Source: Legionella brunensis (lineage in GTDB: Bacteria; Pseudomonadota; Gammaproteobacteria; Legionellales; Legionellaceae). Taken from it: a DNA stretch of 58,217 bases. Made by a program: the position numbers and the translations under genes. The first letter of the stretch is position 1; each line of letters opens with the position of its first letter. The stretch spans positions 1-58,217 of the forward strand of contig NZ_LNXV01000029.1 in assembly GCF_001467025.1 (NCBI RefSeq). The letters run 5' to 3'. The notes beneath the pieces were generated by a model. It was not told the DNA's origin, ran no database searches, and saw only the letters and a list, made by a program, of their open reading frames with translations. Positions 23,094 to 43,254 of the stretch are shown here, piece after piece.

Positions 23094-25313
23094 ATGAAAC
23101 ACGACCATCATCAACAAAAGCATACAAACACTGGAAAAAAGGACGCTTGTTGTCATCAGGAACATAGGGTACAGAAGTCACGCGATGCTTCCTCCAAAAC
23201 AGAGGGTGCAATCATCTATACTTGCCCCATGCATCCTGAAGTACGTCAGACTAATCCCGGGATTTGCCCTCTTTGTGGTATGGCCTTAGAGCCGGAAACA
23301 GTGACCGCCGAAAGTGAAATAAATCCTGAATACCTTGATATGAGGCGCCGATTTTGGATGGCAGTGATTCTTACTTTACCTGTTGTGGTATTGGAGATGG
23401 GCGGACATTTGTTGAAAAACATTATATCTGCCGGTGTTTCAAACTGGATTCAACTGCTATTTGCTACACCTGTTGTGTTATGGTGTGGCTGGCCATTTTT
23501 TCAGCGTGGCTGGCAAACTCTTAAAACACGTCAATTGAATATGTTTACTCTAATAGCTATGGGTATTGGGGTAGCATGGGTTTATAGTGTGGTGGCAGTA
23601 CTGCTGCCTGGGGTATTCCCTATAGCTTTTCGAAGTCAAGAAGGGGTGGTCGCTGTGTATTTTGAAGCGGCAGCTGTCATTACTACCCTTGTCTTATTAG
23701 GACAAGTGCTGGAATTAAAAGCAAGAGAGCAGACAGGCAGTGCTATCCGTGCTTTATTGAAATTAGCACCTGACAGTGCACATCGTATTAAGAATGATGG
23801 AAGTGAGGAGGAAGTATCACTGGATAGGATTAATATCGGTGATTTATTGCGCGTTCGCCCTGGTGAAAAAATACCGGTAGATGGTGAAGTACAAGAAGGA
23901 CGAAGCTTTGTAGATGAATCCATGGTGACTGGGGAGCCTATTCCGGTTACTAAAGAAGCAGGTGCTAAAGTTATTGGTGCGACGATTAACCAAACGGGTA
24001 GTTTTGTTATGAAAGCACTTCACGTTGGTAGTGATACCATGCTTTCACGTATTGTTCAGATGGTGAGCGATGCTCAACGAAGCCGCGCATCTATTCAACG
24101 TTTAGCAGATACTGTATCTGGATGGTTTGTGCCTGCTGTGATTTTAATTGCAATGCTATCTTTTATTTTGTGGGCATTGTTGGGGCCACAACCATCACTT
24201 AGCTATGGCTTAATTGCTGCTGTATCTGTATTAATCATCGCTTGTCCCTGTGCCTTAGGCTTGGCAACTCCGATGTCTATTATGGTAGGAGTAGGGAAAG
24301 GTGCTCAGAGTGGTGTATTGATTAAAAACGCTGAGGCGCTTGAACGAATGGAAAAGGTGAACACGCTTGTTGTAGATAAAACAGGAACCCTCACTGAAGG
24401 GCACCCCAAATTGACGCAGATTGTAACTGATCAAGGCTTAAATGAGGAAGAGGCATTAGTGCTAGCAGCATCGCTTGAACATCAAAGCGAACATCCGCTT
24501 GCCCAAGCCATCGTGAGTGCTGCAAAGGAAAAACAGTTGGCTCTTGAACCAGTTCAAGATTTTGACGCCCCAACTGGGAAAGGAGTAGTGGGTAAAGTAA
24601 ATGGTCATCGTGTTGCCATTGGTAATATCAAATTAATGCAAGAGCATGGGAACGATAATGCTTCTCTTTTTGAAAAGGCAGATGAATTTCGTGGCAAAGG
24701 TGCCTCTGTGATGTTTATGGCAATCAATGATAAAACGGTAGCTCTTTTGGTGGTAGAGGATCCAATTAAATCAACTACTCCTGAAACTATCCGATCTCTT
24801 CAACAAAGCGGCATTGAAATTTATATGCTGACAGGGGATAGTAAAAAAACAGCAGAAGCTGTGGCAGGTACACTTGGCATAAAAAAGGTAGTGGCTGAAA
24901 TCATGCCCGAGGATAAAAGCCGTATTATAAGTGAATTAAAAGAGAAAGGACTCACCGTGGCAATGGCAGGAGATGGGGTAAATGACGCACCGGCACTGGC
25001 ACGAGCTGATATTGGTATTGCCATGGGAACAGGGACTGATGTGGCTATTGAGAGTGCTGGTATTACCTTATTGCATGGTGATTTGCGTGGTATCGCCAAG
25101 GCTCGCCGTTTGTCAGAAGAGACTATGAGTAATATACGCCAAAATCTTTTCTTCGCTTTTATTTATAACATATTGGGTGTCCCTTTGGCTGCGGGAATCT
25201 TGTATCCATTCACAGGATTACTATTAAGTCCAATCATCGCCGCACTGGCTATGGCGCTTTCTTCTGTTTCAGTTATTATCAATGCGCTGAGGCTGCGGCG
25301 GATAACACTGTGA
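23094..25313 (+). CDS. copA: Copper-exporting P1B-type ATPase CopA
   Basis: Exports Cu+ from cytosol to periplasm. The 739-residue protein has a His-rich N-terminus, a short heavy-metal-binding motif ([20 protein letters not shown]), eight predicted membrane segments, the CPC motif (Cys384 and Cys386), the actuator TGEP, the phosphorylated Asp in DKTGTLT (Asp428), SEHPLAQA and [10 protein letters not shown]. As far as I recall, the L. pneumophila CopA of known structure is almost identical throughout, with these residues two positions earlier. It lacks a classic MXCXXC ferredoxin-like N-terminal domain, as does that protein. It follows the tiny lipoprotein gene by 47 bases; an AGGTGA lies before the ATG. 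Confidence 0.95.
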
Positions 25314-25960: not shown

Positions 25961-28921
25961 ATGTTAAAAAAGGACTTCCATCATGTACTAAGGAACTATT
26001 TTCTTATTTTTTTCCTTTTGGTGTTCAGTCCTTTTGCTTTGTTTGCCCAACATGAACAGCATGGTGCGGCGACCCCAACAGAGACTTCTTCCAAGACGAC
26101 ACTATCTCAATCCAAACCTACGGGGAAAAAAACGGAACAACAACCGGCTAAAAAGAAACCTGCCAGGGCAATAAAACCCCTGTCCCTTCCACGTGGCCCA
26201 GCGCGTACGATTAATTTGGTAGTGGCTTATAAAACCGTATACTTTGCTGGTAAACCTCGACGTGCCATTGCCGTCAATGGTCGAATCCCTGCCCCTACCC
26301 TACATTTCAAGGAAGGTGAGCAGGTCACCATTAATGTGTACAACCATTTGGATAAGGAAACCTCCATTCATTGGCATGGTTTACTTGTCCCCTGGCAAAT
26401 GGATGGTGTCGAGGACGTCAGTCAGAAAGCCATTCCACCAGGAGGTGTGTTCCATTATCGATTTACTCTTTATCAAAGAGGAACCTATTGGTACCATGCC
26501 CATGCCAAGGCTCAAGAGCAAGAGGGTTTGTACGGCGCCTTTCTTATTGACCCACCGAGCCCCCCAGCCTACAAATACAGCAAAGATCATGTGGTGGTAT
26601 TATCCGATTGGAGCAACACCCCTGCCGATAACGTGTTTGCTAATTTAAAAAAAGATGGGGATTACTATAGCCCTCGATTCCCATTGCAGCCCTCGCTCAT
26701 GAAATTTCTGCATGACTATCGCAAAGCACCAGCTAAAGAACGTAAAGAATTAATCGCTGATTACAAAATGATGCAGCAAATGCGCATGAGTATTTATGAT
26801 TTAAGCGACATTGCTTATGATGCGTATTTACTCAATGGTCAGCCTAAATCATCCCCCTGGACGGCACCTGTTCGAGTTGGGGACACCGTAAGGTTACGGT
26901 TCATTGGTGCTGGTGCCAGTACTATCTATCGCGTTAAAATTCCTGATGCCAAAATGGAAATGGTGCACAGCCAAGGAAATGATGTGCGCCCTTATCTCAT
27001 CGATGATTTTTGGATTGCACCTGGGGAAACCTATGATGTCTTGGTTAAAATTCAAAAAAACAGGCCTTACATTATTTATGCTGAATCCATTGATACGCTG
27101 GGCAAAGTCTATGGCGCCTTAGTGACTAAGCCCAGACAACCCGTTGATTATCAGCACATTGTACCCTTTCCAGAGCCTCTTCCTGTCACAAGAGAGATGA
27201 TGGCCAACATGATGAAGTCAGGGATGAATCATGGCTCGATGGCAAAAAACAATCATTCCATGAGTAATAAGCGGGGTATGGCAATGAAACAACCTATGGC
27301 CATGCCTTCCCATTCCAAAACGATGAGTTCGCAAGGTAATCAACACAACATGCCAGCAATGACTTCTCAAAATAGTCCGGGTAATACCAAGCACTCTAAT
27401 CACTCCATGTCCTCTATGAAACAAGACCAAGGGATGTCGGGGATGAATCATGCTTCCATACTTAAAAATAAAATGTCGACAGCCCCCTCTTCTTCAATGA
27501 ACGAGTCCACTTCAGCCTCCAGACCAATGAAACCAAAAGGCATGCCTCCCATGAGTTCTATGTCAACGGGTTCGATGGGGAGCCAGTCTACCACGCAGAC
27601 GAAACACGCTACGATGTCGGGTGATGGAGGCATGCAAGACGATACGATGAACAATGGGATGTCCATGGATAATGGCATGACCATGCCCATCGAACCAACC
27701 ATTATAGGGGATACGATTTCAGCGCCCAATTCCATAAGCGCTAAAACCCTAGGAACAAAATACCAACAATTAACCGCAGCGGTTCCTACCAACAATCCGG
27801 ATATACCCGTCGATGGGATCATCCGCATGGAATTGTTTGGTTATATGGACAGGTATATTTGGATGATTAATGGCTTGCCGGAATACAAAGCAAAACCGAT
27901 TGTCATTGAACCTGGAAAACGCTATCGTATTATCTTTACCAACAACTCCATGATGCGCCATCCCATGCACATTCATGGCCATTGGTTTATTTTACGCAAT
28001 GGTCATGGCGTTTATGATCCCTTGTTGCATACCATTGAAGTCGATCCCGGTGCTACTGCGGTGGCTGATTTTGATACGGAGGCCAGCGGCCAATGGTTTT
28101 TCCATTGTCATCATCTGTTTCACATGACATCGGGTATGGCGCGGGTATTCCAATATGAAACCATTATCGACGTGGTGAACGGAAAAGCCAAGCCTGAAAC
28201 GGAAATTGCGCCAACACCCTATATCAATCGACCGATTGTCCGAGTCGATGAGGTGATGCCTATTGATAAGGCCCTTATTACTCACCCCGCAGGACATCAT
28301 CAAGGGTTCTATCGGGCCAATTTTCTTGAGGTGAATGCCGATCCTTTTCATAACGCTCAAGAAATGACGTTTCGAGGGTATTATGGGACTGATTACCAAA
28401 AACTCCAGCTGTATACTGAGGATGCTGAAATTTATCAAGGAATTGTTGAAAATGCGGACATCGATGTTTTTTATTGGCATTTGATTAGTCAATTCTGGGC
28501 CATTAAAGGCGGGGTCAATTATTTTTATCGCCCTGGAGGACCTTATTGGCAACCCGGTATTGGCATCGAAGGGTTGATGCCTTATTACATTGACACCAAC
28601 ATTAGAACTTATTATCGTGATGGCAGTGTTAAGTTTGACATTCAGTTATCGCGGGCTACCCAGCTTACCAATAACTTCTTCTTCCTAACGGGGATCCGCA
28701 GTATTCTCGCCACTCATACCGTGGTCGAAAATGAGATTGGTTCTGGCTTAAATCAAATGCGTTATATCATTAGACCTTATTATCGCGTTATGCCTGGTTT
28801 AAATGTCTTTACTGAATTTGAGTATGACAAAGATTATGGTGTCTACAAGAGGATTCTTACTGATTTAGGAGAATCGACCACTCAGACGACGGTGTCTTTC
28901 GGTGTTGCCGTGATATTTTAA
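25961..28921 (+). CDS. CopA-type multicopper oxidase fused to CopB outer-membrane domain
   Basis: A 986-residue periplasmic and outer-membrane copper-resistance protein. After a signal peptide (to about residue 29), a multicopper oxidase part carries all copper sites: SIHWHGLLVP (near 137), YWYHAHAKAQEQEG (near 176), HPMHIHGHW (near 667) and FHCHHLFHM (near 713). Between the second and third cupredoxin domains lies an insert of about 160 residues (413-577) extremely rich in Met, His and Ser. From about 760 to the end the chain reads as CopB, a beta-barrel (ITHPAGHHQGFYRANFLEVN onward). In most bacteria copA and copB are separate genes, so this is a fusion. No frameshift is needed. Confidence 0.87.
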   Translation: MLKKDFHHVLRNYFLIFFLLVFSPFALFAQHEQHGAATPTETSSKTTLSQSKPTGKKTEQQPAKKKPARAIKPLSLPRGPARTINLVVAYKTVYFAGKPRRAIAVNGRIPAPTLHFKEGEQVTINVYNHLDKETSIHWHGLLVPWQMDGVEDVSQKAIPPGGVFHYRFTLYQRGTYWYHAHAKAQEQEGLYGAFLIDPPSPPAYKYSKDHVVVLSDWSNTPADNVFANLKKDGDYYSPRFPLQPSLMKFLHDYRKAPAKERKELIADYKMMQQMRMSIYDLSDIAYDAYLLNGQPKSSPWTAPVRVGDTVRLRFIGAGASTIYRVKIPDAKMEMVHSQGNDVRPYLIDDFWIAPGETYDVLVKIQKNRPYIIYAESIDTLGKVYGALVTKPRQPVDYQHIVPFPEPLPVTREMMANMMKSGMNHGSMAKNNHSMSNKRGMAMKQPMAMPSHSKTMSSQGNQHNMPAMTSQNSPGNTKHSNHSMSSMKQDQGMSGMNHASILKNKMSTAPSSSMNESTSASRPMKPKGMPPMSSMSTGSMGSQSTTQTKHATMSGDGGMQDDTMNNGMSMDNGMTMPIEPTIIGDTISAPNSISAKTLGTKYQQLTAAVPTNNPDIPVDGIIRMELFGYMDRYIWMINGLPEYKAKPIVIEPGKRYRIIFTNNSMMRHPMHIHGHWFILRNGHGVYDPLLHTIEVDPGATAVADFDTEASGQWFFHCHHLFHMTSGMARVFQYETIIDVVNGKAKPETEIAPTPYINRPIVRVDEVMPIDKALITHPAGHHQGFYRANFLEVNADPFHNAQEMTFRGYYGTDYQKLQLYTEDAEIYQGIVENADIDVFYWHLISQFWAIKGGVNYFYRPGGPYWQPGIGIEGLMPYYIDTNIRTYYRDGSVKFDIQLSRATQLTNNFFFLTGIRSILATHTVVENEIGSGLNQMRYIIRPYYRVMPGLNVFTEFEYDKDYGVYKRILTDLGESTTQTTVSFGVAVIF

Positions 28922-29310: not shown

Positions 29311-30798
<1,488 letters not shown>

Positions 30799-30806
30799 AA
30801 CTAAAA

Positions 30807-31217
30807 ATGGCGTGTTTCGATTTATACTTACAGAGTTCGACACAATGTGAAAAAATGTCTCATGTCGTTAGTTTTGTTGGTGAAGATGCTTCAGGCCTGT
30901 TTGGTATTTTAGCCCAGCATACCCAAATGATGACGTGCTTACATTTCGGTTTGGCATGGTTTCGTTACGATAATAATGAGACGGAATATTTGGCTTTGCC
31001 AGGAGCAATCCTCTATTTTAAAGACAATCAATTGTTTCTCGCTACGCGACATTATGTTCGCCACAAAGAGTATCAAGCCATACAGCATATCTTAGAGAAC
31101 GAATTAAAGAGTGAAGCAGACCATCTTATCAGTATCAACGACAGTTTACATCGTTTGGATGAAGAGATGTTACAGCGTCTATGGAATTTAAAACGGCAGA
31201 ATGCTTATGAAATTTAA
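30807..31217 (+). CDS. atpC: N-type ATPase subunit epsilon
   Basis: A 136-residue epsilon subunit, part of the central stalk. It starts ACFDLYLQSSTQCEKMSHV and has the N-terminal beta-sandwich of epsilon (GILAQHTQMMTCLHFGLAWF, corresponding to the usual GILPGHAP region) followed by a C-terminal helical hairpin. ATG 30807 has AAAGGAG about 13 bases upstream; an upstream in-frame ATG at 30765 would overlap atpD more deeply. Its stop overlaps the next gene by 17 bases. Confidence 0.78.
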   Translation: MACFDLYLQSSTQCEKMSHVVSFVGEDASGLFGILAQHTQMMTCLHFGLAWFRYDNNETEYLALPGAILYFKDNQLFLATRHYVRHKEYQAIQHILENELKSEADHLISINDSLHRLDEEMLQRLWNLKRQNAYEI

Positions 31218-31485
31218 AGATCCAAAAAAAGATCTGGCACAACACGTTAAATTGGACGTGAGCAAAATCAACAAAGCAAAAAGGGAAAAATCCACTGTGC
31301 TAGCACAAACGATTTATTTAGGCACCTTGGGATTTGTATTTATTTTGCCTATTATTGCAGGGGCCTACCTAGGGGTTTGGTTAGACAGCAAACTGAAGGG
31401 TTTTTCTATTAGCTGGACAATCAACTTAATTATTATTGGGGTTATCGTTGGTGCGGTGAATGTGTACCTCCTGATTAAGGAATAG
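31201..31485 (+). CDS. atpQ: N-type ATPase accessory membrane protein (AtpQ/AtpI-like)
   Basis: A 94-residue protein with two membrane helices (about residues 35-57 and 70-92) after a charged N-terminus. The AYLGVWLDSKL motif between the helices is that of the AtpZ/AtpI-type assembly factors, which in N-type operons is called AtpQ. N-type operons usually also carry atpR, a three-helix protein, between atpQ and atpB. Here the next gene is already subunit a, two bases downstream, so atpR is missing. Starts at 31201 and 31207 are both possible. Confidence 0.7.
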   Translation: MLMKFKDPKKDLAQHVKLDVSKINKAKREKSTVLAQTIYLGTLGFVFILPIIAGAYLGVWLDSKLKGFSISWTINLIIIGVIVGAVNVYLLIKE

Positions 31486-31487
31486 CC

Positions 31488-32180
31488 ATGGGGGAAGAAG
31501 GGATTTTAAACGCACTATCCTTTTCGCTAGGCTCAGTGGTCATCACACAAAGTGTGTTAACCACCTGGCTCATTATGATGGCTTTGCTCCTTTTTTTATG
31601 GCTTTCATCGCGACACTTATCGCTTCTTCCGGGGAATTGCCAAGTTGTTTTAGAGGGTATTGTGGTCGCAATGCAGGATACGATGAACGAAGTGCTGCCT
31701 TTGACCTATGTTGCTTTGGTCTTTCCTTTTATTGCCACGTTATGGATTTTTATCCTTATTTCCAATTTAATTGGCATTATTCCAGGATTCTATTCGCCTA
31801 CAGCCGATCTATCAGTCACAGCGTCTCTAGCGATAGTGACTTTTTTTTCCGTGCATTGGTTTGGAGTTCGCGCCGAGGGGTGGAAAGCCTACTTAAAGCA
31901 TTACTTGAAGCCCACGCCCTTTTTATTACCGTTTCACTTAATTAGCGAATTATCGAGAACATTGGCTTTGGCTATCCGCTTGTTTGGTAACGTCATGAGT
32001 CTTCAGTTAACGGCACTTATTGTTCTGATGATTGCTGGATTCTTAGCACCGATACCCATTCTCATGCTTCATATTATTGAAGCAGTGATACAAGCTTATA
32101 TCTTTGGTATGCTGGCTTTAATCTATATTGCCGGGGGTATTCAATCCCACGAGTTGAAGAAACAAGGAGAGTGGTCATGA
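31488..32180 (+). CDS. atpB: N-type ATPase subunit a
   Basis: Fo stator subunit a of 230 residues, forming the half-channels for the coupling ion. Five or so membrane helices are visible. The essential arginine lies in LALAIRLFGNVMS, and the final helix carries HIIEAVIQAYIFGMLALIYI, both strongly conserved. AAGGA lies six bases before the ATG. It overlaps the atpE start by four bases. Confidence 0.9.
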   Translation: MGEEGILNALSFSLGSVVITQSVLTTWLIMMALLLFLWLSSRHLSLLPGNCQVVLEGIVVAMQDTMNEVLPLTYVALVFPFIATLWIFILISNLIGIIPGFYSPTADLSVTASLAIVTFFSVHWFGVRAEGWKAYLKHYLKPTPFLLPFHLISELSRTLALAIRLFGNVMSLQLTALIVLMIAGFLAPIPILMLHIIEAVIQAYIFGMLALIYIAGGIQSHELKKQGEWS

Positions 32181-32446
32181 ACAGTATCAGCTGGTTTAGT
32201 TTAGCATCAACAGTGATTGCCGCATTGGTGATTGCTATTGGGACTATAGGTCCTGCGATCGCCATGGGGCGTGCCATAAGTCATGCTCTTGATGCGTTAG
32301 CAAGGCAGCCAGAGGCTGAAAAATCAATTACCAGAACCTTATTTATCGGCTTAGCCATGATTGAATCATTGGCTATTTATTGCTTGGTGATTGTTTTGAT
32401 TATTTTATTTAGAAATCCATTATTGTCTTATCTCGTTTCTCAATAA
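32177..32446 (+). CDS. atpE: N-type ATPase subunit c (rotor ring)
   Basis: An 89-residue rotor subunit with two helices joined by the ARQPEA loop (residues 42-47). AAGGAGA six bases upstream supports ATG 32177 over an in-frame GTG at 32171. The ion-binding carboxylate is Glu63 in MIESLAIYCLV. In Na+-type rings the partners are Gln in helix 1 and Ser, Thr, Tyr in helix 2; here these positions are Met30, Ser64, Leu65 and Tyr68. Many N-type c subunits have a second carboxylate at the Met30 position; this one does not. This suggests proton rather than sodium coupling, an inference from alignment by eye. Confidence 0.9.
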   Translation: MNSISWFSLASTVIAALVIAIGTIGPAIAMGRAISHALDALARQPEAEKSITRTLFIGLAMIESLAIYCLVIVLIILFRNPLLSYLVSQ

Positions 32447-32455
32447 GGACTAAAA

Positions 32456-33217
32456 ATGGAGCTATCGTGGTCAACCTTTTTATTGGAACTCATTAATTTT
32501 CTTGTTTTGATTTGGATTTTAAACTATTTTTTTTATGCCCCAATCCAGCAAACCATTGCAAAGCGCAGGCACATGGTCCAAGAACAATTAGAAAACGCGG
32601 AACAACGTCACAATGAAGCCCAGCAGTTACAAATAAAATATGAACATCGTCTCGCGGATTGGCAACAAGAGAAAAATACGTTGCAAAAGGAATTCCAACA
32701 AGCGATGGAACGATGGAAGTCGGAGGAAACGCTCCATTTTGAAAAAAAGTTAAATAAAGAACAAGAACAATTAAATGCACGTGAAATGAAAAAGGCCAAA
32801 GAATATATTGAAAAAAATGCCAAAGAAGCGCTGTTACTGGCCGGAAAATTTACAGAAAAATTGTTAATCCAGTTTGCTGATGAGCACCTTGAACAGAAAA
32901 TCATTGAAAAAACAATCGAAGACCTTAATCGTTATCCAGAAAAACCATGGCAATTAATGGAGGATGTTTCTGAACAGGATACTCTTGTTGTCCAAAGTGC
33001 TTATGCAATCAATAAAAGTCAACAACGCCGCCTAGGTCAGGCCATTGAAAAAATAATGTGTAAAAAACCAACTATAGAATGGGTTGAAAACCCAGCGCTT
33101 CTGGCCGGGTTAACACTTCAAATGGGCTCAATCCTTCTACAAGCGAATCTTCGCGATGAATTAAAATTCTTTACCGAGACGAACAATGAACTTACCCGAC
33201 AACCACTCCATTCTTGA
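32456..33217 (+). CDS. atpF: N-type ATPase fused b-delta subunit
   Basis: A 253-residue stator protein. The N-terminus is a membrane helix ([20 protein letters not shown]), then about 100 residues of charged coiled coil as in subunit b. The C-terminal third resembles the end of delta ([20 protein letters not shown]), so it is the b-delta fusion typical of N-type ATPases and explains why no separate atpH is present. GGAC-A5 leads to the ATG 32456. It overlaps atpA by 32 bases. Confidence 0.85.
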
Positions 33218-34658
33218 GCATCAACGGCAACGAATTGAGAACTATCACTTTGAAGTAAGGCGTTCTGAAGTGGGGCATGTTGTCTCAGTGGGCGATGGAA
33301 TTATCTGGATCGCAGGGCTGCCAACAGCAGCTATTGATGAAATTCTTATTTCAGTCGATGGCTGTTGTATCGCTATGGTTTTTCATCTCACCGAACGCCT
33401 TGTAGGCGCCATCATGTTGTTGCAAACTAAAAAATTAAAATCCGGGATGCCTATGTTTCATCTGAAGCGTTCATTAAGTATTCCTGTAGGGGATTCGCTT
33501 TTGGGGCGAGTGGTTGATCCTTTAGGGCATCCATTAGATGAAGAGGAACCACCACCCTGTGATGAACAAGGATTACTTGACATTTTATCGATCCCTATTA
33601 TTCACCGTGATTTTGTGACGCGCCCTTTTTATACCGGTAATAAAATGATTGATAATGTCATTCCTCTTGGAAAAGGACAGCGGGAACTCATTATAGGTGA
33701 TAATGGGTTGGGCAAAAGCGCCTTGGCTATTGATATTGTGATCAATCAAAAAGATAAAAACGTGCGTTGTGTCTATGTGTTAATTGGCCAAAAACGTTCT
33801 ACGGTTGCCAATACCATCCAATTGCTAAAAGAAACTCAGGCGTTGGAATACACCACGGTGGTTGTGGCACTGGCCACCTCATTACCCGGATTGCTTTATC
33901 TCGCCCCTTTCGCAGGATGTGCTGTTGCGGAGCATTGGATGAAGCAAGGCTTTGATACGTTGGTCGTGTACGATGATTTGAGTGCTCATGCCAACTGTTA
34001 CCGTGAACTGTCGCTTTTACTGCGCAGGCCTCCTGGGCGTGAAGCTTTTCCTGCGGATATCTTCTATTTACATGCTCGCTTATTAGAGCGCTCAACGTGC
34101 CTGTCTCCTGAAATGGGAGGGGGCAGTATGACCGCACTTCCTATTATAGAAACAAAACAAGGGGAAATTGCGACCTATATCCCCACAAATCTGATTTCAA
34201 TCACCGATGGGCAACTCTTTTTTGATGAACATTTATTCTCAGCAGGATTTCTACCGGCAATTGATATCACCAAATCCGTTTCTCGCGTAGGCGGTAAAGC
34301 CCAACACCCCAACATAAAAAAAGAGGCGGGTCGAATGAAGTTGGATTACATGCAATTTCTTGACTTGGAACTGTTTACGCGTTTTGGGGCTAAGCTCGAT
34401 ATTAAAATGCAACAACACATTCAAAATGGACGACTGTTAAGAGAAGTATTTAAACAAGAGCGTCTTTCGCCCTTGCCAATTGAATTCCAACTCGCCTGGT
34501 TGATTGCCTACAATGAGGGACTCTTTGCCCACTTAAGTTTAGATGACATCCCCAAGGTTCTAAAAAAAATAGAGCAAGAAGTCAAAAAAAGCAGCTTGTC
34601 ACTGGCCAGTTCTCGCGAGGAATGGAGCAATGCAGTCAAAGGCTGGTTAAATGGGTAG
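33186..34658 (+). CDS. atpA: N-type ATPase subunit alpha
   Basis: A 490-residue alpha subunit of the F1 head. The P-loop is GDNGLGKS (residues 171-178); housekeeping alphas have GDRQTGKT, so this is a divergent alternative type. Later motifs include [20 protein letters not shown] and [16 protein letters not shown], including the conserved Arg-finger region [10 protein letters not shown]. Its start lies within the end of atpF. It is followed 46 bases later by gamma. Confidence 0.9.
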
Positions 34659-34703
34659 TACCATGCCTGTTTCTCAGGCGCATTGAATTTTAGGAAGAAA
34701 TTT

Positions 34704-35594
34704 ATGACCAAGCGTAGTCAACTAAACGATCATTTTACGGCCTTAGACGACATTGGTAATATCATGACCGCCATGAAAACTCTTTGTTCTATTGAGCTCA
34801 ATAAAATCACCAAATTTCTTCCTATGCAGGAACAAGTCATGCAAACCATTAGAGACGCAGGGCGTGATTTTTTTAGTGCTTACCCCATTTCCCCCATGAA
34901 TACACCAAATGGTAATTCTTCCCTTTATATTCTTATTGGTTCTGAACGAGGTTTTTGTGGTGGTTTTAATGATAGCGTGCTTCACTGGATAGCGGAGAGG
35001 GAACAACAAGACCCTGAATTTTTGCCAGTATTCCTTGTCGTAGGGCGTAAATTGGCTTTGAAAATGGCAAACGATTCGCGTGTCATCAAAGCATTAGATG
35101 GCGCTAATGCTCTCCAAGAAATTCCTGCGGTGATTTTACATCTGTTGCAGTCTCTTGAGGAAGTAGTATCACAACAGCGTATGGAATGGCACTCTTGGCA
35201 GTGGGAGATCCTGTTCAATGAGGAGGAAAAAAATCAAATTGAGGTAAAAACAGTGCGTCCATTCCAAGAGTTTTTTTTAACCAATGACAAGCCATGTTCC
35301 GTTCCACCGATTCTCAATTTATCCCATGAGCAATTTTTATCTGAGTTTGCTGAACAGTATTTATTTTCAATGTGTTATTCCATTTTTTATAAATCATTTT
35401 ATGGTGAAAACCACCAAAGGCTGTTTCATTTGAATCATGCCTTGGATAGCTTAGAGAATAAACGAAGCGCATTAAAAAAATATCTTAATATACTGCGTCA
35501 AGAAGAAATTACTGAAGAAATTCAGAACATCATCCGATGTGCGGAAGCGATTATTGGCAATGACATGAAGGAACACCACTTGGACATTGAGTGA
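34704..35594 (+). CDS. atpG: N-type ATPase subunit gamma
   Basis: A 296-residue central stalk subunit, less conserved than the others. TAGGAAG seven bases upstream supports ATG 34704; an in-frame TTG at 34683 is less likely. The signature parts are the N-terminal helix with MTAMKTLCSIELNKI, the sequence SERGFCGGFND and a long C-terminal helix ending RCAEAIIGND, corresponding to the usual EIVSGAAA helix. It closes the ATPase operon. Confidence 0.83.
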   Translation: MTKRSQLNDHFTALDDIGNIMTAMKTLCSIELNKITKFLPMQEQVMQTIRDAGRDFFSAYPISPMNTPNGNSSLYILIGSERGFCGGFNDSVLHWIAEREQQDPEFLPVFLVVGRKLALKMANDSRVIKALDGANALQEIPAVILHLLQSLEEVVSQQRMEWHSWQWEILFNEEEKNQIEVKTVRPFQEFFLTNDKPCSVPPILNLSHEQFLSEFAEQYLFSMCYSIFYKSFYGENHQRLFHLNHALDSLENKRSALKKYLNILRQEEITEEIQNIIRCAEAIIGNDMKEHHLDIE

Positions 35595-35725: not shown

Positions 35726-37627
35726 ATGATTCGATATCACAACACCAATAAGACAATTCGCCAATGGCAGCCCCTATTGAAAGTGCTGTTGGTTTTGATT
35801 TTAATGGGCGCCACCGCATCATCCTATGCCCAGGCATCCGATGAGCATGCCAGTCATCATCAAAGCAGCCAGGGTAATCTCAGTGTCATTCCGAGTGTAA
35901 CTGGACAAACTCCTGGTAAAGACATGATGGGTGCTATGGGTGAGATGATGAAGCAAATGGGCATGCCGAAACGAAAAGCGCTGTATCCCTCGTTGATGAG
36001 TCTGCCCGATATCCCACTGGAAAGGCGCAGTGAAATACAACAATTGGCACAAGAACGGATGCAATCGGGCCTGTCTTTGATGGCGAAAGGGATTGATACG
36101 CTTCTTAAAGCATCGGCTAAGACGAATTTTTCTCAGATGCAGGATGCAGTCGCTTCGATACGTGAAGGTCTTTCACAGTATGATAGTGGATTGGCTGCAT
36201 CTCGTGCGCTTGCCGAGGGAAAGGTGCCACGCCAAGTGGCCTTATTATGGTTCAAACAGGAAATGAATTTACTCCCCACGGCACCTGCCACCCATACACT
36301 TTTAGGTGGCCCGCTGTTTCATTTGACGATTATCACGCTGTTTCTTGTCTTCTTTATCCTAATGATTTGGATGTATTTTTTTAAAATGCGAAGGGCATCG
36401 GCATTACTTGAGAGTTTGACCAGCAAAGGAGATGTCCTTTCTCCAAGTATTTCAGCCACGAGCTCAATGAGTCCTCCTCCTGCAGCCGCTTCGGAAGTCA
36501 TTAAAGAGACTCATCAGTCCTCTGGGGAATTAGCAACACCTGCGAAACCACCAAAGTTCCCGGTCATGCGCACGCTAACAATCCCCCTTGATCAGTGGGA
36601 GGGGCAATTGCGTGTGTGCCGTATCTTTGATGAAACACCGGGGGTAAAAACCTTTTTGCTCGCATCATTAAAAGAAGTGGCATTGCCTTTTACCTATTTC
36701 CCTGGTCAATTCATCACCATCACAGCTACCATTAATGGCACACGGGTGAAGCGAAGCTATACTATCGCCTCAACGCCTACCCAACTTCACTATTGTGCCA
36801 TCACAGTGAAACGCGAAGAACAAGGTTTGTTCTCACGTTATTTGCATGATGAGGTTAAAGAAGGCGATGTGCTTGAGGTGATGGGGCCCAATGGAAAATT
36901 TACTTTTACCGGAGAAGAAGCATCGAGCATTGTCCTTATTTGTGGCGGGGTGGGAATTACCCCAATGATGGGCATTATTCGTTATTTAACGGATATAGGA
37001 TGGCACGGTGATATTTATTTACTGTACTGCTGCAGAACAACCAGCGATTTTATCTTTCGTGACGAATTAGAGCGGCTGCAAAAAAGGTACCCTAACCTCA
37101 ATGTCTTTGCCACCATGTTACGCGCATCAGGAACGGTGTGGATGGGTTTAAAGGGCGAGTTCACAACCAGCATCATTTCCTATCTGGTGCCGGATGTCGC
37201 CAAGCGTCGCATCCATGTATGTGGTCCTCCGGGCATGATGAATGCGGTGCTGAATAGTTTAAAGGAGCTTAGTGTATCTGAAAAACAGATATATACCGAA
37301 GCGTTTGGTACGGCCATGAAGCCACCATTGACCCCGCAACAAATGGAGGCTATTGCACCAGAAAATAAGGCAGTTGTTTTATTTACGCGTTCTCATAAAA
37401 CAGCCCCAATCTTACCCAACTACACGCTTCTTGAAATCGCCGAGGCCAATGGTGTTTCTATTGATAACTCGTGTCGCACAGGCCAGTGTGGGCTGTGTAA
37501 AGTGAAATTACTCACAGGCAAGGTATCCATGGATTGTGATGATGCGCTTTCAGAGGAAGAAAAGCAGCACGGTTTTATCCTGGCATGCCAGGCCAAAACC
37601 GATGAGAATATTGAGGTTGATGTGTGA
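35726..37627 (+). CDS. Membrane-anchored flavin/2Fe-2S NAD(P)H oxidoreductase with periplasmic domain
   Basis: A 633-residue electron-input protein. A signal-like segment (about residues 19-36) is followed by a His/Met-containing helical domain without known family (to about 195), a membrane helix (about 199-220) and a linker. Then comes a ferredoxin-reductase unit: FAD site RVKRSYTIAST, NAD(P) site CGGVGITPMMG and CGPPGMM. The C-terminal plant-type [2Fe-2S] domain has ligands Cys583, Cys588, Cys591 and Cys621 (CRTGQCGLC and LACQA). The enzyme part should face the cytosol and the N-terminal domain the periplasm. It is followed directly by a cytochrome b-like gene (TGATG overlap) and a heptaheme cytochrome gene. 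Confidence 0.8.
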   Translation: MIRYHNTNKTIRQWQPLLKVLLVLILMGATASSYAQASDEHASHHQSSQGNLSVIPSVTGQTPGKDMMGAMGEMMKQMGMPKRKALYPSLMSLPDIPLERRSEIQQLAQERMQSGLSLMAKGIDTLLKASAKTNFSQMQDAVASIREGLSQYDSGLAASRALAEGKVPRQVALLWFKQEMNLLPTAPATHTLLGGPLFHLTIITLFLVFFILMIWMYFFKMRRASALLESLTSKGDVLSPSISATSSMSPPPAAASEVIKETHQSSGELATPAKPPKFPVMRTLTIPLDQWEGQLRVCRIFDETPGVKTFLLASLKEVALPFTYFPGQFITITATINGTRVKRSYTIASTPTQLHYCAITVKREEQGLFSRYLHDEVKEGDVLEVMGPNGKFTFTGEEASSIVLICGGVGITPMMGIIRYLTDIGWHGDIYLLYCCRTTSDFIFRDELERLQKRYPNLNVFATMLRASGTVWMGLKGEFTTSIISYLVPDVAKRRIHVCGPPGMMNAVLNSLKELSVSEKQIYTEAFGTAMKPPLTPQQMEAIAPENKAVVLFTRSHKTAPILPNYTLLEIAEANGVSIDNSCRTGQCGLCKVKLLTGKVSMDCDDALSEEEKQHGFILACQAKTDENIEVDV

Positions 37628-38388
37628 TGAATGCACCAGGACGCATGATGGCACTCGGATTGATTCTGCTCATGATGATGACATGGCTGGGATTTACGGT
37701 GCATGTGTCTCCTCGTTTTGCAGGAAGCTTGTGGGGTGGCGTCATTGGCATTAGTGGTTCCGTGTTAATGCTCGTGCCCTTATTTTACCTTTTTATTAAA
37801 CGTATCCCTATTTTAAAACATTGGGTCACCCAGTATGTTTCCATGAACACCTTACTTTCCTGGCATATCTATGCAGGCATTATTGGCCCCATTTTAGTAC
37901 TGATTCATACCGGACATAAATTTCAAAGTGTGCTGGGTATTGCCCTGACCGGGATGACCTTAATTGTCACGATAAGTGGTTTTGTGGGGCGCTACCTCTT
38001 GAGTTTTATAGCCGATGAAGTTCGTGAGAAAAAAGAACTCCTTTCAGGCCTTCAGAATCAGTATCAAAGGGTAGCTCAGGAAATGCAAACGAACCCTGAT
38101 TTAAAGAAAACCCTAACACGCTTTCATTATATGAGAGCGCGTTTCGCATCTTGGCTATTTAATGAGAACGTATTAACTGGCGAAAACACAGCCCCAGCAA
38201 GTCTACGTGCCTTACGTTTGGTTGAAGCCATTGCGGAGCTGGAATACGCCATTCAATTTCATGAACAATTCAAACGCGCCTTTCGGACATGGTTGAAGCT
38301 GCATATTGTGATTGCCCTTGTGTTGTATGGTTTGCTTGCCTTGCATGTCTGGTCTGGAATTTACTTTGGGCTAAGGTGGTTTCAATGA
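37627..38388 (+). CDS. Two-heme cytochrome b-like membrane protein
   Basis: A 253-residue protein with about five membrane helices. Two helices each carry a pair of histidines 14 residues apart: His80 and His94 (SWHIYAG and LIHTGH), and His226 and His240 (KLHIVIA and ALHVWSG). This is the geometry for two b hemes stacked across a membrane, as in ferric reductases and related cytochromes. A charged, coiled part between them (about 128-215) is probably cytosolic. The start overlaps the flavoprotein stop by one base and its stop overlaps the next start by four. I infer that it carries electrons from the flavoprotein to the periplasmic cytochrome. Confidence 0.75.
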   Translation: MNAPGRMMALGLILLMMMTWLGFTVHVSPRFAGSLWGGVIGISGSVLMLVPLFYLFIKRIPILKHWVTQYVSMNTLLSWHIYAGIIGPILVLIHTGHKFQSVLGIALTGMTLIVTISGFVGRYLLSFIADEVREKKELLSGLQNQYQRVAQEMQTNPDLKKTLTRFHYMRARFASWLFNENVLTGENTAPASLRALRLVEAIAELEYAIQFHEQFKRAFRTWLKLHIVIALVLYGLLALHVWSGIYFGLRWFQ

Positions 38389-39206
38389 AATTGAGTGGAG
38401 CCCTATTTGCTGCCCTTGCTGTTTTAATTTCACTGTTTGTTGCAGCCTATTATGCGCCCAGCCATGAACAAGGAGGGCCTACGAATTGGTTTAATCCTGT
38501 TGAATGGCAAAGAATGGCAAGTCCCGGAACATTATCTAAAGCGCATTCCTTTCTCAGTCACAATTGCAATGCCTGCCATACGCCTGTCAGAGGAGTGGAA
38601 GCCGTAAACTGCATCACCTGCCATGCGAATGATGTTGCTCTTTTACAAAGACAACCCACCTCATTTCATGCCGACATTGGAAGTTGCGTTGAATGTCATT
38701 CGGAACATCAAGGCCAAAATAGACGTCCCACCCAAATGGATCATAATGCGTTTGTTGCAATTGAGCTAAAGCAACTTAAAAAAAATGCAGTCAAAAATGA
38801 AGAGCAACGATTGATTTTTGAGCAAGTTCAGCACTACTTGGAAATGAATGAATCTCCAAAACAATCACCGCTCATCAATCCGCACGTATCCCCTGCCGAG
38901 CGCACCCTGCAATGTACCACGTGTCATCAAAATGAAGACAAACACTTTACTTTATTTGGCAACAATTGTTCTGCCTGCCATGAAACGTCAGATTGGAACA
39001 TCCCAGAATTCATTCATCCATCCCCTAGGTCAAAGGATTGCTCCCAATGTCATCAAGCGCCACCCAGTCATTACATGGAGCATTTTCGCATGATATCAAG
39101 GAAGGTAGCGAGAAAGGAACATGCACAGGTGGATCAATGTTTTATGTGCCATCAAACGACTGCCTGGACGGACATAAAAGGGATTGGATTTTATAAGCAC
39201 CACTAA
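38385..39206 (+). CDS. Heptaheme c-type cytochrome, membrane-anchored periplasmic
   Basis: A 273-residue protein with an N-terminal hydrophobic anchor or signal (residues 4-22). Seven CxxCH heme sites are present at residues 61-65, 76-80, 101-105, 177-181, 195-199, 219-223 and 252-256, three before and four after a heme-free helical insert (about 125-165). Several extra histidines could be distal ligands. The ATG at 38385 overlaps the cytochrome b stop; upstream in-frame starts lie inside that gene. It is the last gene of a three-gene redox set and should hand electrons to a periplasmic or outer acceptor. Multiheme cytochromes of this size are unusual for Legionella. Confidence 0.88.
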   Translation: MKLSGALFAALAVLISLFVAAYYAPSHEQGGPTNWFNPVEWQRMASPGTLSKAHSFLSHNCNACHTPVRGVEAVNCITCHANDVALLQRQPTSFHADIGSCVECHSEHQGQNRRPTQMDHNAFVAIELKQLKKNAVKNEEQRLIFEQVQHYLEMNESPKQSPLINPHVSPAERTLQCTTCHQNEDKHFTLFGNNCSACHETSDWNIPEFIHPSPRSKDCSQCHQAPPSHYMEHFRMISRKVARKEHAQVDQCFMCHQTTAWTDIKGIGFYKHH

Positions 39207-39419: not shown

Positions 39420-40509
39420 CTAATCTTCCTTATATTTTACCCAATCTGAAAAAGTCTCATCCTCAAATTGATACGTGCCATAATCAATTTTGGTAATTAA
39501 ATTTTTTTTCTCTAATCTCCTTAATGAATTCTGAATGGTATTTTTATTTACATTCCCCCCTACTCCAAGAGATTCACCAAGTCTTTTTATAGCATATTGG
39601 CCATATAAGTCTTTTATTCCATCTGCAATCATTGATAAAACAACCATATCGGTAGGTAATAATGCACTCCACTGTTTATGGAAGTTTTTATCACTAAATA
39701 CTTTATTTTTGGTATGTTCAATAGCTGATTGTGGCCCTTGCTCTGGATTACTCAAATAATATTCTATAAATCTGCGAAAAAATTCAGGGGTATTTTTAAG
39801 TTGTTCAAATGCATTAATACCATCATTTATAGCCAAGGGAAATTTAGAAATGGTATTTACCTTCTCTACCATAGCTTTTACAAAATCTTCACCCAATAAT
39901 TCAAACGACTCTAATGGTGCCCAATTGTAAAATGGCTCAGATGCAACCCCAAACATACGTCTAAGCGTCGTTTCAGAACTTCCTGCAAATATTACTTTGA
40001 TACCCTCTTTTCTAACATCTAAAGCAGCTCTTAAAGCATGGGCAAAATGTGAGTTTTCTTCATAAGCTAAAACTTGTGCTTCATCTATAATTAACACCAT
40101 TTTTATTTTTTTGCGATCATAAGAGTTCATTGCTTCCATTAATAATGTACCTGTGACTCTCTTAGGATCTAATAAATCTGCTTCTACGGATCCTTCACCA
40201 ATGCCAGGTATTTTTCCAGAAGCTTTAAATTTTTTGAAATTTATTGATTGATTCAATTTATCCCAGATTTTTGTAAATCCTTTAGGCTCTACCATTTTAT
40301 AAAATTCTGATACTAATGCTGTTGCAGGATCTATCTCTAACTCCCATAAGTTTGTATATACAACAACATAACCAGCTTTTTCTGCTGCGGGGATAAAATC
40401 TTTTTTCAAAAACTCGGTTTTTCCCATTCTTCTTCTAGCAAATAATCCTCGAGCAGAAGTTAATCCTAACGCAAATAAATCGAGATATTTTTTTGCCAAT
40501 GAAGGCCTA
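39420..40509 (-). pseudogene. AAA-type ATPase gene, 5' end cut off by IS insertion
   Basis: P-loop ATPase of unknown partner. Walker A is FARRRMGKTEF near the N-terminus, Walker B is MVLIIDEAQVL, a sensor-like FAGSSETTLRR follows and a winged-helix-like region ends the chain. The first usable start in the remaining frame is TTG at 40499; no ATG precedes the Walker A motif. If the element at 40511-41374 and one copy of its CTAG repeat are removed, the frame joins to an ATG at 41401-41403 and gives a protein of about 371 residues starting MIQNNCHYARPSLAKKYLDL. The IS therefore split the gene after roughly the tenth codon. Residual expression from TTG cannot be excluded. Confidence 0.75.
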
Positions 40510-40510
40510 G

Positions 40511-41374
40511 GTTCCGTGAACCAATTTTTTTAATTACTTGAAAAGTAGGCAGTTTTTATAGTGAAATTCGATTGCGATCGTTAACAACACTAATGGAACT
40601 GCCTACATGTATAATAATATATCAGAACGAGTCTGGGATACAATTTATTCTTTTCTGCAAGGAGTAAAAGGATTGCACATTAAGAATAATGAGAAGACAA
40701 GATGCTTTGTGGAAGGAGTCTGGTATGTATTACGTACAGGCTGTCAATGGCGCCTGCTCCCGCCCTATTACGGACATTGGCGTAAAATTCACAAGCGATA
40801 TAAAATGTGGTCAGATCGCGGCATTTGGACTGGCTTAATGTCTTCAGTTAGCGATGTTGATGATCAAGCCGTCATGATTGATGCCACCATAGTGCGCGCG
40901 CATGCGTGTGCATCTGGTTACGACAAGGAAGGGAATGATGCTCAGGCATTGGGGCGCAGTAAAGGAGGTTTTACCACTAAAATTCACGCTTTGGTGGATG
41001 GACTGGGGAATCCGATTAAGTTTATCCTGACCGGGGGACATCGAAACGATATTACTCAAGCAGCAGAGCTATTGAAGGAGCAGCGTGACACGATAGTTCT
41101 TGCAGATAAAGGATATGATTCACAGGCACTTGTTGACACACTGGAGAGTCAAGGCTGTATTGCAACCATTCCGTCAAAAAAGAATGCGAAGAACCCAAGA
41201 AAAATCGATAAAGAGCAGTACAAAGAGCGGTTTTTAGTTGAAGCTTTTTTCTCCAAAATCAAACACTTTCGGCGTGTTTTTTCTCGTTTTGATAAAACAA
41301 CGACCGCTTTTTCCGGGTTCTTACATTTGGCCGGAGCGCTTATATGGATGCGCTAGAAAATTGGTTCACGGAAC
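40511..41374 (+). mobile_element. IS5-family insertion sequence with CTAG target duplication
   Basis: An 864-base element bounded by 18-base perfect terminal inverted repeats, GTTCCGTGAACCAATTTT at the left and its complement at the right. CTAG flanks it on both sides (40507-40510 and 41375-41378), the usual target duplication of the IS427 subgroup. It carries one intact transposase gene and looks recent. Confidence 0.88.
40607..41356 (+). CDS. IS5-family transposase, intact
   Basis: A 249-residue DDE transposase. The N-terminus has the helix-turn-helix part with RTGCQWRLLPPYYGHWRKIH, typical of IS5 relatives. The catalytic residues lie in MIDATIVRAHACASG, VLADKGYDS and YKERFLVEAFFSKIKHFRR. 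Relatives are often split into two frames needing a frameshift; here it is a single uninterrupted frame. It fills nearly the whole element. Confidence 0.88.
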   Translation: MYNNISERVWDTIYSFLQGVKGLHIKNNEKTRCFVEGVWYVLRTGCQWRLLPPYYGHWRKIHKRYKMWSDRGIWTGLMSSVSDVDDQAVMIDATIVRAHACASGYDKEGNDAQALGRSKGGFTTKIHALVDGLGNPIKFILTGGHRNDITQAAELLKEQRDTIVLADKGYDSQALVDTLESQGCIATIPSKKNAKNPRKIDKEQYKERFLVEAFFSKIKHFRRVFSRFDKTTTAFSGFLHLAGALIWMR

Positions 41375-41961: not shown

Positions 41962-43254
41962 ATGGATAACATTTTTACGGATGCATTAGCACGATTAGAT
42001 GTTGCCTATCAGTATGCAGAAATTGATCCAGAAGCTATCGAGAGATTGAAGCATCCTCAAGCAATCATTCAAATGTCTTTACCTCTTCGAAAAGATGATG
42101 GCAGTTTAGCTATGTATTCCGCCTATCGAGTTCATCATAACAATACTCGTGGCCCAACTAAAGGGGGTATTCGTTTTCATCCTCTCGTTACTCTCGAAGA
42201 AATAAAGGCTCTGTCGTTTTGGATGACAATTAAATGCGCAGTAATTGGTATTCCTTTTGGAGGTGCGAAAGGTGGAATTGTAGTTGATCCAAAACAACTT
42301 TCCAGATTGGAATTGGAGCGTTTAAGCCGGACTTACTTGGAGCATTTTTCCAGTTTTATTGGACCTAACAAAGACATTATGGCACCCGATGTTTATACAA
42401 ATGCCATGATTATGGGCTGGATGATGGATGAATATTCTAAACTTAAACAAGAATACAGTCCTGCTGTTATCACCGGGAAACCCATTGCTTTAAGTGGCAG
42501 TTATGGACGGGAGGATGCGACTGGTCGTGGTGCTTTTTATTGCATTAATGAATTAGCTAAGAAAAAAAATTGGAAACCCCAAAACATTCGTGTAGCAATT
42601 CAAGGATTTGGAAATGCAGGACAGCACATCGCACTCTGTCTATATGAGTCAGGTTATAAAATAGTAGCAGTAAGTGATTCTCAAGGAGGTATCTATCGAG
42701 CAAAAGGACTTGATATTCCTACGTTGATTCATAAAAAAAACAGTAGTAAGAATATTCAAGCAGTTTACTGCACTAGATCAGTATGCGAATGTGAACTAGT
42801 TGAAGCGAACAAAATTTCAAATGAAGAACTTCTGGAATTGGATGTTGATTTACTTATCCCTGCCGCATTAGAAAACCAAATTACCAAAGATAATGCAGCA
42901 AAAATAAAATCACCTGTGATTGTAGAAATTGCCAACGGCCCAACAATGCTAGATGCTGAACCTATTTTAAAAAATAAAAATATTTTAGTAGTACCCGATG
43001 TGTTAGCTAATGCGGGAGGGGTTGCTGTCAGTTATTTTGAATGGGTACAGAATAAAACTGGATATTACTGGAGTGGTGAACAAGTACAACAACGGTTACA
43101 TGATATTATGGTACCTGAGTTTTTAAAAGTGTATCAAATAATGGAAAAGAATAAAATTGATATGCGTACAGCAGCTTATATACACGCCCTAAATCGTTAC
43201 GGCGAAGCCGTCGTGGCCCAAGGGACACAACAACATTATTTTAGTACGACATGA
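41962..43254 (+). CDS. Glu/Leu/Phe/Val dehydrogenase family protein, probable glutamate dehydrogenase
   Basis: A 430-residue dehydrogenase interconverting glutamate and 2-oxoglutarate. The substrate region shows YSAYRVHHNNTRGPTKGGIR, then the catalytic lysine segment PFGGAKGGIVVDP, and MAPDVYTNAMIMGWMMDEY. The Rossmann fold is VAIQGFGNAGQHIA, followed by SDSQGGI, and the sequence DVLANAGGVAVSYFEWVQN near the C-terminus is characteristic. Length is typical for hexameric NAD-type GDH. AAGGAAT precedes the ATG. It stands alone, after the AT-rich region and before decayed sequence. Leucine or phenylalanine dehydrogenase is less likely by length. Confidence 0.87.
   Translation: MDNIFTDALARLDVAYQYAEIDPEAIERLKHPQAIIQMSLPLRKDDGSLAMYSAYRVHHNNTRGPTKGGIRFHPLVTLEEIKALSFWMTIKCAVIGIPFGGAKGGIVVDPKQLSRLELERLSRTYLEHFSSFIGPNKDIMAPDVYTNAMIMGWMMDEYSKLKQEYSPAVITGKPIALSGSYGREDATGRGAFYCINELAKKKNWKPQNIRVAIQGFGNAGQHIALCLYESGYKIVAVSDSQGGIYRAKGLDIPTLIHKKNSSKNIQAVYCTRSVCECELVEANKISNEELLELDVDLLIPAALENQITKDNAAKIKSPVIVEIANGPTMLDAEPILKNKNILVVPDVLANAGGVAVSYFEWVQNKTGYYWSGEQVQQRLHDIMVPEFLKVYQIMEKNKIDMRTAAYIHALNRYGEAVVAQGTQQHYFSTT

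Follow-up and report, generated by a model that had tools for sequence, protein, structure and literature searches.

The window analysed here, a stretch of 58,217 nucleotides of Legionella brunensis (assembly GCF_001467025.1, contig NZ_LNXV01000029.1, forward strand), carries three consecutive genes, designated A, B and C, that encode a flavoprotein reductase, a putative dihaem membrane protein and a heptahaem cytochrome c. An earlier note on this DNA had claimed three overlapping redox genes, and these were indeed observed among the open reading frames (ORFs) of the window at 35726–39206, on the same strand and with short overlaps at both junctions:

35726–37627, + strand: gene A, 633 amino acids (ORF list, Pfam)
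37627 (ATG; alternative GTG at 37624) to 38388, + strand: gene B, 253/254 amino acids, putative dihaem cytochrome b, PCC3-type homologue by sequence comparison
38385 (ATG)–39206, + strand: gene C, 273 amino acids, heptahaem cytochrome c, secreted or membrane-anchored

The ORF list starts gene C at an in-frame upstream ATG (38289), and the ATG at 38385 was taken as its start here.

Gene A encodes, in order, a signal peptide, a His/Met-rich periplasmic stretch, a helical region, a single transmembrane (TM) helix followed by KMRR, and domains for flavin adenine dinucleotide (FAD), nicotinamide nucleotides (NAD(P)) and a 2Fe-2S cluster, the last three corresponding to Pfam matches above cut-off for FAD_binding_6, NAD_binding_1 and Fer2, in this order. 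Its features are as follows:

35840–36300, + strand: periplasmic domain of A (~residues 39–192), with an HxxHH-type motif, a Met-rich stretch and a helical region; blank in Pfam
36320–36322, + strand: His199 of A, where the TM helix is predicted to meet the periplasm; conserved without exception in an alignment of 48 sequences, which was chosen by a motif search that did not catch 15 of the 79 A proteins
36608–37315, + strand: FAD- and NAD(P)-binding domains of A (~residues 295–530), by Pfam
37418–37597, + strand: C-terminal [2Fe-2S] ferredoxin domain of A, by Fer2 match

The motifs of the reductase portion are widely kept among 83 A proteins, some of which are incomplete: the 2Fe-2S motif C[RK]xGxCGxC was found in 82, LACQ in 80, R[SC]Y[ST] in 78, GGVGxTP in 73 and CGP in 66. 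The nearest curated families were PaaE/GbcB-like reductases, below cut-off, and A did not qualify as GbcB or PaaE itself, since it missed both NCBIfam equivalog cut-offs (233 against 500 bits for GbcB, 188 against 421 for PaaE). The N-terminal ~190 amino acids gave no match in the Pfam scan, in agreement with the earlier claim that the flavoprotein has an unrecognised His/Met-containing periplasmic domain. Within this domain, the HxxHH-type motif was present in 67 of the 70 proteins having a YPSLM anchor (9 of 79 A proteins, which do not have the anchor, were dropped from this count), and Met makes up 14.5% of the Met-rich stretch against 3.2% of the rest. HxxHH-type motifs and Met-rich stretches are typical copper-binding features, and the periplasmic domain of A probably binds copper, as judged from its residues.

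Gene B encodes a protein with five predicted TM helices, and the two His pairs that had been claimed for it, His80/His94 and His226/His240 (numbered from the ATG at 37627), were found at these positions, each as HX13H:

37864–37908, + strand: His80 and His94 on TM3 of B, putative haem b ligands; invariant in the 67-sequence alignment
38302–38346, + strand: His226 and His240 on TM5 of B, putative haem b ligands; invariant in the 67 sequences and preceded by Trp222 (WX3H)
37702–37704, + strand: His26 of B, in a predicted periplasmic loop; invariant in the 67 sequences
37915–37917, + strand: His97 of B, three residues past the outer haem ligand His94; invariant in the 67 sequences

An SGXXG motif lies on TM4, in which G118 is invariant and S117 and G121 are conserved in at least 90% of the sequences. 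The charged loop of ~97 residues between TM4 and TM5 is probably cytoplasmic because it contains 14 Lys/Arg. No Pfam family matched the B of the window above cut-off, and Ferric_reduct (PF01794) was not detected in it at E values up to 1; in one relative (L037) this family reached an E value of 0.088, below cut-off. An AlphaFold2 model of B, built with no haem, had a mean predicted local distance difference test (pLDDT) score of 80.9 and a predicted template modelling (pTM) score of 0.69, with helices that include residues 3–22, 35–59, 73–94, 102–155 and 191–252. Several loci of Planctomycetota, Hydrogenedentota and further groups (L025, L029, L030, L037, L042, L065 and more) were also observed to carry a DUF547 domain joined to the C-terminus of B, a fusion that yielded no functional clue.

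The seven CxxCH sites claimed for the third protein were all recovered in gene C, whose N-terminus is an anchor or signal and which matched Cytochrome_C7/Cytochrom_c3_2 in Pfam above cut-off:

38565–39152, + strand: seven CxxCH of C, with first bases at 38565, 38610, 38685, 38913, 38967, 39039 and 39138

An alignment of 82 distinct C sequences, which leaves out L051 (cut) and L086 (six CxxCH), contained exactly seven invariant His outside CxxCH (54, 95, 108, 120, 187, 211 and 229), besides three more His conserved at 88–89% and a Met118 conserved at 100%. These seven His would presumably supply one distal ligand to each haem of an all-bis-His cytochrome, the pairing being proposed from conservation. 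A cytochrome c maturation gene of the CcmF/NrfE family is present in the genome.

To find relatives, 84,980 species genomes were scanned with the B alignment, which gave 335 confirmed relatives, and the best 80 of these 335 were analysed. An A homologue was found on the same strand upstream of B in 79 of the 80 loci (L080 begins at B; the A piece lies 2.2 kb off in L060 and 0.5 kb off in L064), and a C homologue downstream of B likewise in 79 of 80 (L064 stops before C, and C is 1 kb away in L060). The median A-B gap is 2 bases, seven CxxCH are present in 77 of the 79 C proteins (L051 is cut by a contig end and L086 has six), and the trio extends over at least 10 bacterial phyla among these 80 loci. 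The same three-gene order, which had been proposed as a check, does recur in other genomes, so that the claim withstands the refutation named for it, a failure of the genes to co-occur elsewhere; the association of A, B and C is more than chance.

The distribution of the trio includes mobile elements. A tblastn search of A against plasmids matched 1645 records, and the trio was present in nine of the nine examined among the matches listed, namely plasmids of Alteromonas, Pontibacter, Spirosoma, Bradyrhizobium, Sphingobium and Methylocystis (in which C is there, unannotated) and three Legionella plasmids (B being short in that of L. anisa, with 205 amino acids). In a search with B, 53 of 72,556 plasmid records were positive, 26 of which are conjugative, and in a Pseudomonadota sample B was found at E ≤1e-20 in 7 of 398 genomes. 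The B protein is 100% identical in L. santicrucis and Legionella sp. PC1000. In a tree of 67 B proteins the phyla are mixed, with 18 label changes against a minimum of 9 for ten groups (13 rows being assigned to no group), a pattern that fits horizontal transfer, falling short of proof. It had been claimed as well that multihaem cytochromes are rare in Legionella; for this family alone, members were found in 2 of 22 genomes of the genus, that of the window included, although 14 of the 80 loci belong to Legionella. In one same-genus genome (G021:C1:1909284-1910041), B was seen in two pieces with a stop, and C intact.

By homology, B belongs with the inner-membrane proteins of a conduit type already described. 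He et al. (2017) reported that the PCC3 inner-membrane protein has five helices, HX13H on TM3 and TM5, SGXXG on TM4 and WX3H ahead of both His pairs, and proposed two b haems and a quinone contact; PCC3 was modelled as an inward conduit in Fe(II) oxidisers (PMC5566968). In our analysis, distant homologues of B turned up in 12 additional genomes of Gammaproteobacteria or Legionellaceae, of which the weakest (G065, G025) may be chance. Five proteins were assigned here to the PCC3 type, on the basis of nearby 19–23-haem genes (L116, L117, L119), an adjacent gene with at least 12 CxxCH (L099) or an eight-haem neighbour (L118). An hhalign comparison of the 67 B sequences with these five gave a probability of 99.3 and an E value of 8.2e-21 over 229 columns, which makes B remotely homologous to the inner-membrane proteins of the PCC3 type. 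B has the five TM helices, HX13H on TM3 and TM5, SGXXG on TM4 and an adjacent multihaem cytochrome; however, WX3H stands ahead of the TM5 pair only, not of the TM3 pair, where Trp79 adjoins His80.

The trio also departs from PCC3 in several respects. PCC3 includes a porin and an extracellular multihaem protein, with median haem numbers of 34 and 21 in the data given for it, whereas the C of the trio has seven haems and a second multihaem gene (at least three CxxCH) was found in the flanks examined of just 4 of the 80 loci, the other 76 having none there. Further differences are the presence of the FNR/Fer2 protein A in the trio and, in B, the additional residues His26 and His97; among the five aligned PCC3-type proteins, His26 occurs in none and His97 is missing in four, and in the L118 protein a His stands four residues past the outer-ligand position, one further than His97. 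In L116, L117 and L119, two genes of 19–23 CxxCH each adjoin the B-like gene, which is the PCC3 layout. A 621-amino-acid gene past the multihaem genes of L117 matched TPR only, no beta-barrel search aimed at porins having been made for these loci or for the trio.

The neighbours of these distant relatives provide a further link with A. In 4 of the 12 genomes, a gene for a 4Fe-4S, FAD and pyridine-nucleotide oxidoreductase lies beside the B-like gene, within a span of mostly 1.5 kb per side. It was observed on the opposite strand in L116, L117 and L119, and in two pieces in L116. In the passages of PMC5566968 that describe PCC3, this neighbouring gene goes unmentioned. Moreover, the gammaproteobacterial locus L118:7102-9835 is a divergent A-B-C, with an FAD/NAD/Fer2 protein, a B-like protein of 209 amino acids without the long loop, and an eight-haem C-like protein. 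NAD(P)H/Fe-S oxidoreductase genes therefore adjoin PCC3-type relatives of B in 5 of the 12 genomes, L118 included, and since these differing arrangements share it, a cytoplasmic NAD(P)H/Fe-S enzyme can be said to recur next to this membrane family.

Other known systems offer partial likenesses. Fre/STEAP/NOX proteins, as portrayed in part of PMC3591440, have four His on TM3 and TM5, an FAD/NAD(P)H reductase inside and one-electron delivery outside; the trio differs in that B has no Ferric_reduct match, the reductase is separate and carries a 2Fe-2S cluster, and the electrons would end on a heptahaem c. As for CbcL-type proteins, these are generally held to use a dihaem b that feeds a periplasmic multihaem c, much as proposed here. 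CbcL draws electrons from menaquinol, whereas the partner in the trio is an NAD(P)H flavoprotein. At two loci (L059:2178-4223 and L076:6318-8066), a CbcL-like gene lies just upstream of A, in which a protein with 10 or 6 CxxCH is fused to a cytochrome b561-type domain. CcoG, a cupric reductase, provides a precedent for membrane-bound Cu(II) reduction in bacteria, which for the trio is a hypothesis, but it has two 4Fe-4S clusters, and a haem or FAD module goes unnamed for it in the relevant part of PMC7558416.

It had been suggested that the genes might represent an undescribed redox system. This suggestion stands for the combination and falls for one of its parts: the trio was not found in a literature search of titles and abstract starts among the matches listed (subscription journals being mostly uncovered), whereas the B family was reported in 2017 as PCC3. 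Of two papers on Alteromonas plasmids, PMC4781885 mentions metal genes and a hydrogenase, the term 'cytochrome' being absent from its available text, and in that of PMC8478169 'cytochrome', 'ferredoxin', '2Fe-2S' and 'oxidoreductase' are all absent. Assembled from parts of known kinds and often carried on metal islands, the trio is best described as a probable NAD(P)H-fed branch, with a heptahaem partner, within the family of PCC3 inner-membrane proteins.

These results suggest, with a probability of roughly 0.6, that the products of A, B and C assemble into a single inner-membrane complex, by which electrons are moved outward from NAD(P)H to a periplasmic acceptor under stress by copper or related metals. 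In this mechanism, NAD(P)H would reduce the FAD of A, from which electrons would pass singly to the 2Fe-2S domain, enter B at its inner b haem (His80/His226), cross to the outer b haem (His94/His240), and run through the seven haems of periplasmic C to the acceptor. The single TM helix of A would tie the reductase to B and place the His/Met-rich domain beside the outer haem and C. Membrane potential favours outward electron flow. The claimed transmembrane electron conduit is well supported by sequence evidence, through the operon, the haem-ligand pattern, the homology of B and the adjoining NAD(P)H-linked reductase genes; we infer the binding and pairing of the b haems, the direction, the formation of a complex and the role of metals. 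The favoured acceptor is Cu(II) in the periplasm, or else a different metal ion that is soft or redox-active, and Cu(II) reduction is the leading hypothesis because the arm of A has the HxxHH-type motif and the Met-rich stretch.

The genomic surroundings bear on both ends of this path, through the following genes of the window:

23094–25313, + strand: Cu(I)-exporting P-type ATPase (context gene)
25961–28921, + strand: multicopper oxidase, CopA type, below family cut-off (context gene)
41962–43254, + strand: glutamate dehydrogenase, 2.7 kb downstream of the trio

A secreted Met/His-rich protein is encoded near the trio in 39 of 66 non-Legionella loci, upstream of A in all but two, and genes for CopA, multicopper oxidase or resistance-nodulation-division (RND) proteins occur in 30 of these 66 loci and in 13 of 14 Legionella loci; the CopA, RND and TolC labels express sequence likeness, and one representative each of the multicopper oxidases, Met-rich proteins and glutamate dehydrogenases was checked in Pfam. 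One Met-rich representative matched Metal_resist just short of the cut-off (27.3 against 29.2 bits). The periplasmic domain of A was also tried as a homologue of this Met-rich neighbour and the idea rejected, hhalign having aligned only 12 columns at a probability of 69.6. Of the acceptors that had been suggested, metal ions (Fe, Cu) are candidates, backed by gene context only as to metal involvement; the multicopper oxidase next to the trio is a conjectural acceptor, such an oxidase being clustered with the trio in 27 of 80 loci.

At the donor end, glutamate dehydrogenase is clustered with the trio in 26 of the 80 loci, 22 copies being at least 46% identical to that of the window and the other four 28–32% identical and more than 5 kb away. 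It lies on the same strand directly before A in eight loci (L025, L026, L027, L031, L032, L033, L034 and L065), and in L014 it begins 11 bases past the end of C. Since this NAD(P)H-making enzyme sits on either side of the operon, the proposed NAD(P)H donor is supported. In the window, a reverse-strand ATPase-like ORF (39420–40499) and a transposase-like ORF (40607–41356), both named by sequence likeness, were observed between C and glutamate dehydrogenase. An operon for a NiFe hydrogenase follows downstream of the trio on a plasmid of Alteromonas macleodii (L001:11929-25860), and a 407-amino-acid Pfam-blank protein is encoded between the two.

The link to copper is also supported by whole genomes: in 8 of 9 of them (G247 being the exception), a Cu-ATPase or CopA-type oxidase lies no more than 36 kb from B, against 0.74 expected (P ~6e-9). 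Several points weigh against a metal-linked outward conduit. The 36-kb limit of this count was set after the distances had been seen, the expectation assumes uniform placement and independence, and three of the nine genomes are Legionellaceae and hence not independent. Metal genes tend to cluster on mobile islands anyway, and 20 of the 80 loci are without the metal-type clusters counted, 16 of them with spans below 20 kb and four with the full 20 kb. A close solved relative of B or C was not found, and when the B model was compared with solved structures, no cytochrome appeared among the 50 matches listed, which were helical bundles or coiled coils covering mostly residues 100–253, an uninformative result given that a long helical hairpin filled the match list. 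The position of the Alteromonas copy upstream of hydrogenase genes and the fusion of multihaem c to cytochrome b561 upstream of A in 2 of 80 loci also count on this side, since they would allow inward flow from H2 or an exchange of electrons with quinones.

A more specific proposal would make A-B-C a widespread NAD(P)H-driven transmembrane metal reductase, the bacterial counterpart of Fre/STEAP, in which the invariant His199 of A together with His26 and His97 of B would form an extra site for a metal (copper) or a haem next to the outer b haem and C, and the Cu(I) produced from Cu(II) would be handed to Met-rich binding proteins and to efflux pumps. All three His are predicted to lie on the periplasmic face, and no protein with the A periplasmic domain was observed next to any of the five aligned PCC3-type relatives. 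This proposal is put forward as a tentative possibility, less probable than not.

The main rival is O2 reduction, because His97 resembles a His of NADPH oxidase (NOX), one residue off. In this alternative, considered unlikely, the trio would be a NOX counterpart in which the outer haem of B, with His97 nearby, or C would reduce periplasmic O2 or H2O2 as an electron sink or for peroxide removal under metal stress. In NOX, an extra His-119, four residues after His-115, was proposed to aid O2 binding (PMC3591440, in part), and the invariant His97 of B follows its outer ligand His94 in a similar manner; the metal-island setting would, by inference, bring oxidative stress. However, the spacing is three residues rather than four, a heptahaem c partner would be superfluous to a NOX, bis-His haems rarely bind O2, and the B of the window has no Ferric_reduct match in Pfam.

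Ranked after it, and improbable as well, is an inward conduit, in which periplasmic donors, either H2 via a hydrogenase or a quinol-linked multihaem protein, would reduce C, and A would make NAD(P)H. Inward flow stays alive because the Alteromonas trio sits upstream of NiFe hydrogenase genes, and it would be in keeping with the b561/multihaem fusions that precede A in L059 and L076 and with the inward model of PCC3 for Fe(II) oxidisers, as proposed in PMC5566968. On the other hand, it would be opposed by the membrane potential, and NAD(P)+ could not be reduced by metal ions, which are too oxidising for this. Moreover, the PaaE/GbcB-like reductases nearest to A (below cut-off) normally donate electrons, and the adjoining glutamate dehydrogenase is a source of NAD(P)H and not a consumer, though it is reversible. 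Lastly, the view that three ordinary redox genes merely gathered on metal islands with no common pathway, to which the copies on islands and conjugative plasmids would lend themselves, is nearly refuted, within the loci analysed, by the overlapping or near-overlapping genes, their fixed order and the seven haems kept across at least 10 phyla.

Two further gene groups of the window were observed upstream of the outward conduit proposed here. An N-ATPase (alternate F1F0 ATPase) gene set occupies 29383–35594, directly upstream of A. It was considered as a functional partner and rejected: within the flanks examined, all 14 Legionella loci have it beside the trio, against 0 of 66 others, and its linkage was therefore treated as local. 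The region 19015–22840 encodes a beta-CASP metallo-hydrolase, a thymidine/adenosine monophosphate (AMP) phosphorylase-like protein and a phosphoribosyl pyrophosphate (PRPP) synthase, and the last two were also observed near the trio in L. adelaidensis.

A paper of 2025 calls the function of the PCC3 inner-membrane protein unverified (PMC12442390, in the part that concerns it). The trio suggests a cytoplasmic partner for this family, in which NAD(P)H oxidoreductases, and not quinones alone, may supply the electrons. Furthermore, a conserved haem conduit with a His/Met-rich arm, spread over at least 10 phyla and conjugative plasmids, allows a direct test of periplasmic metal reduction.

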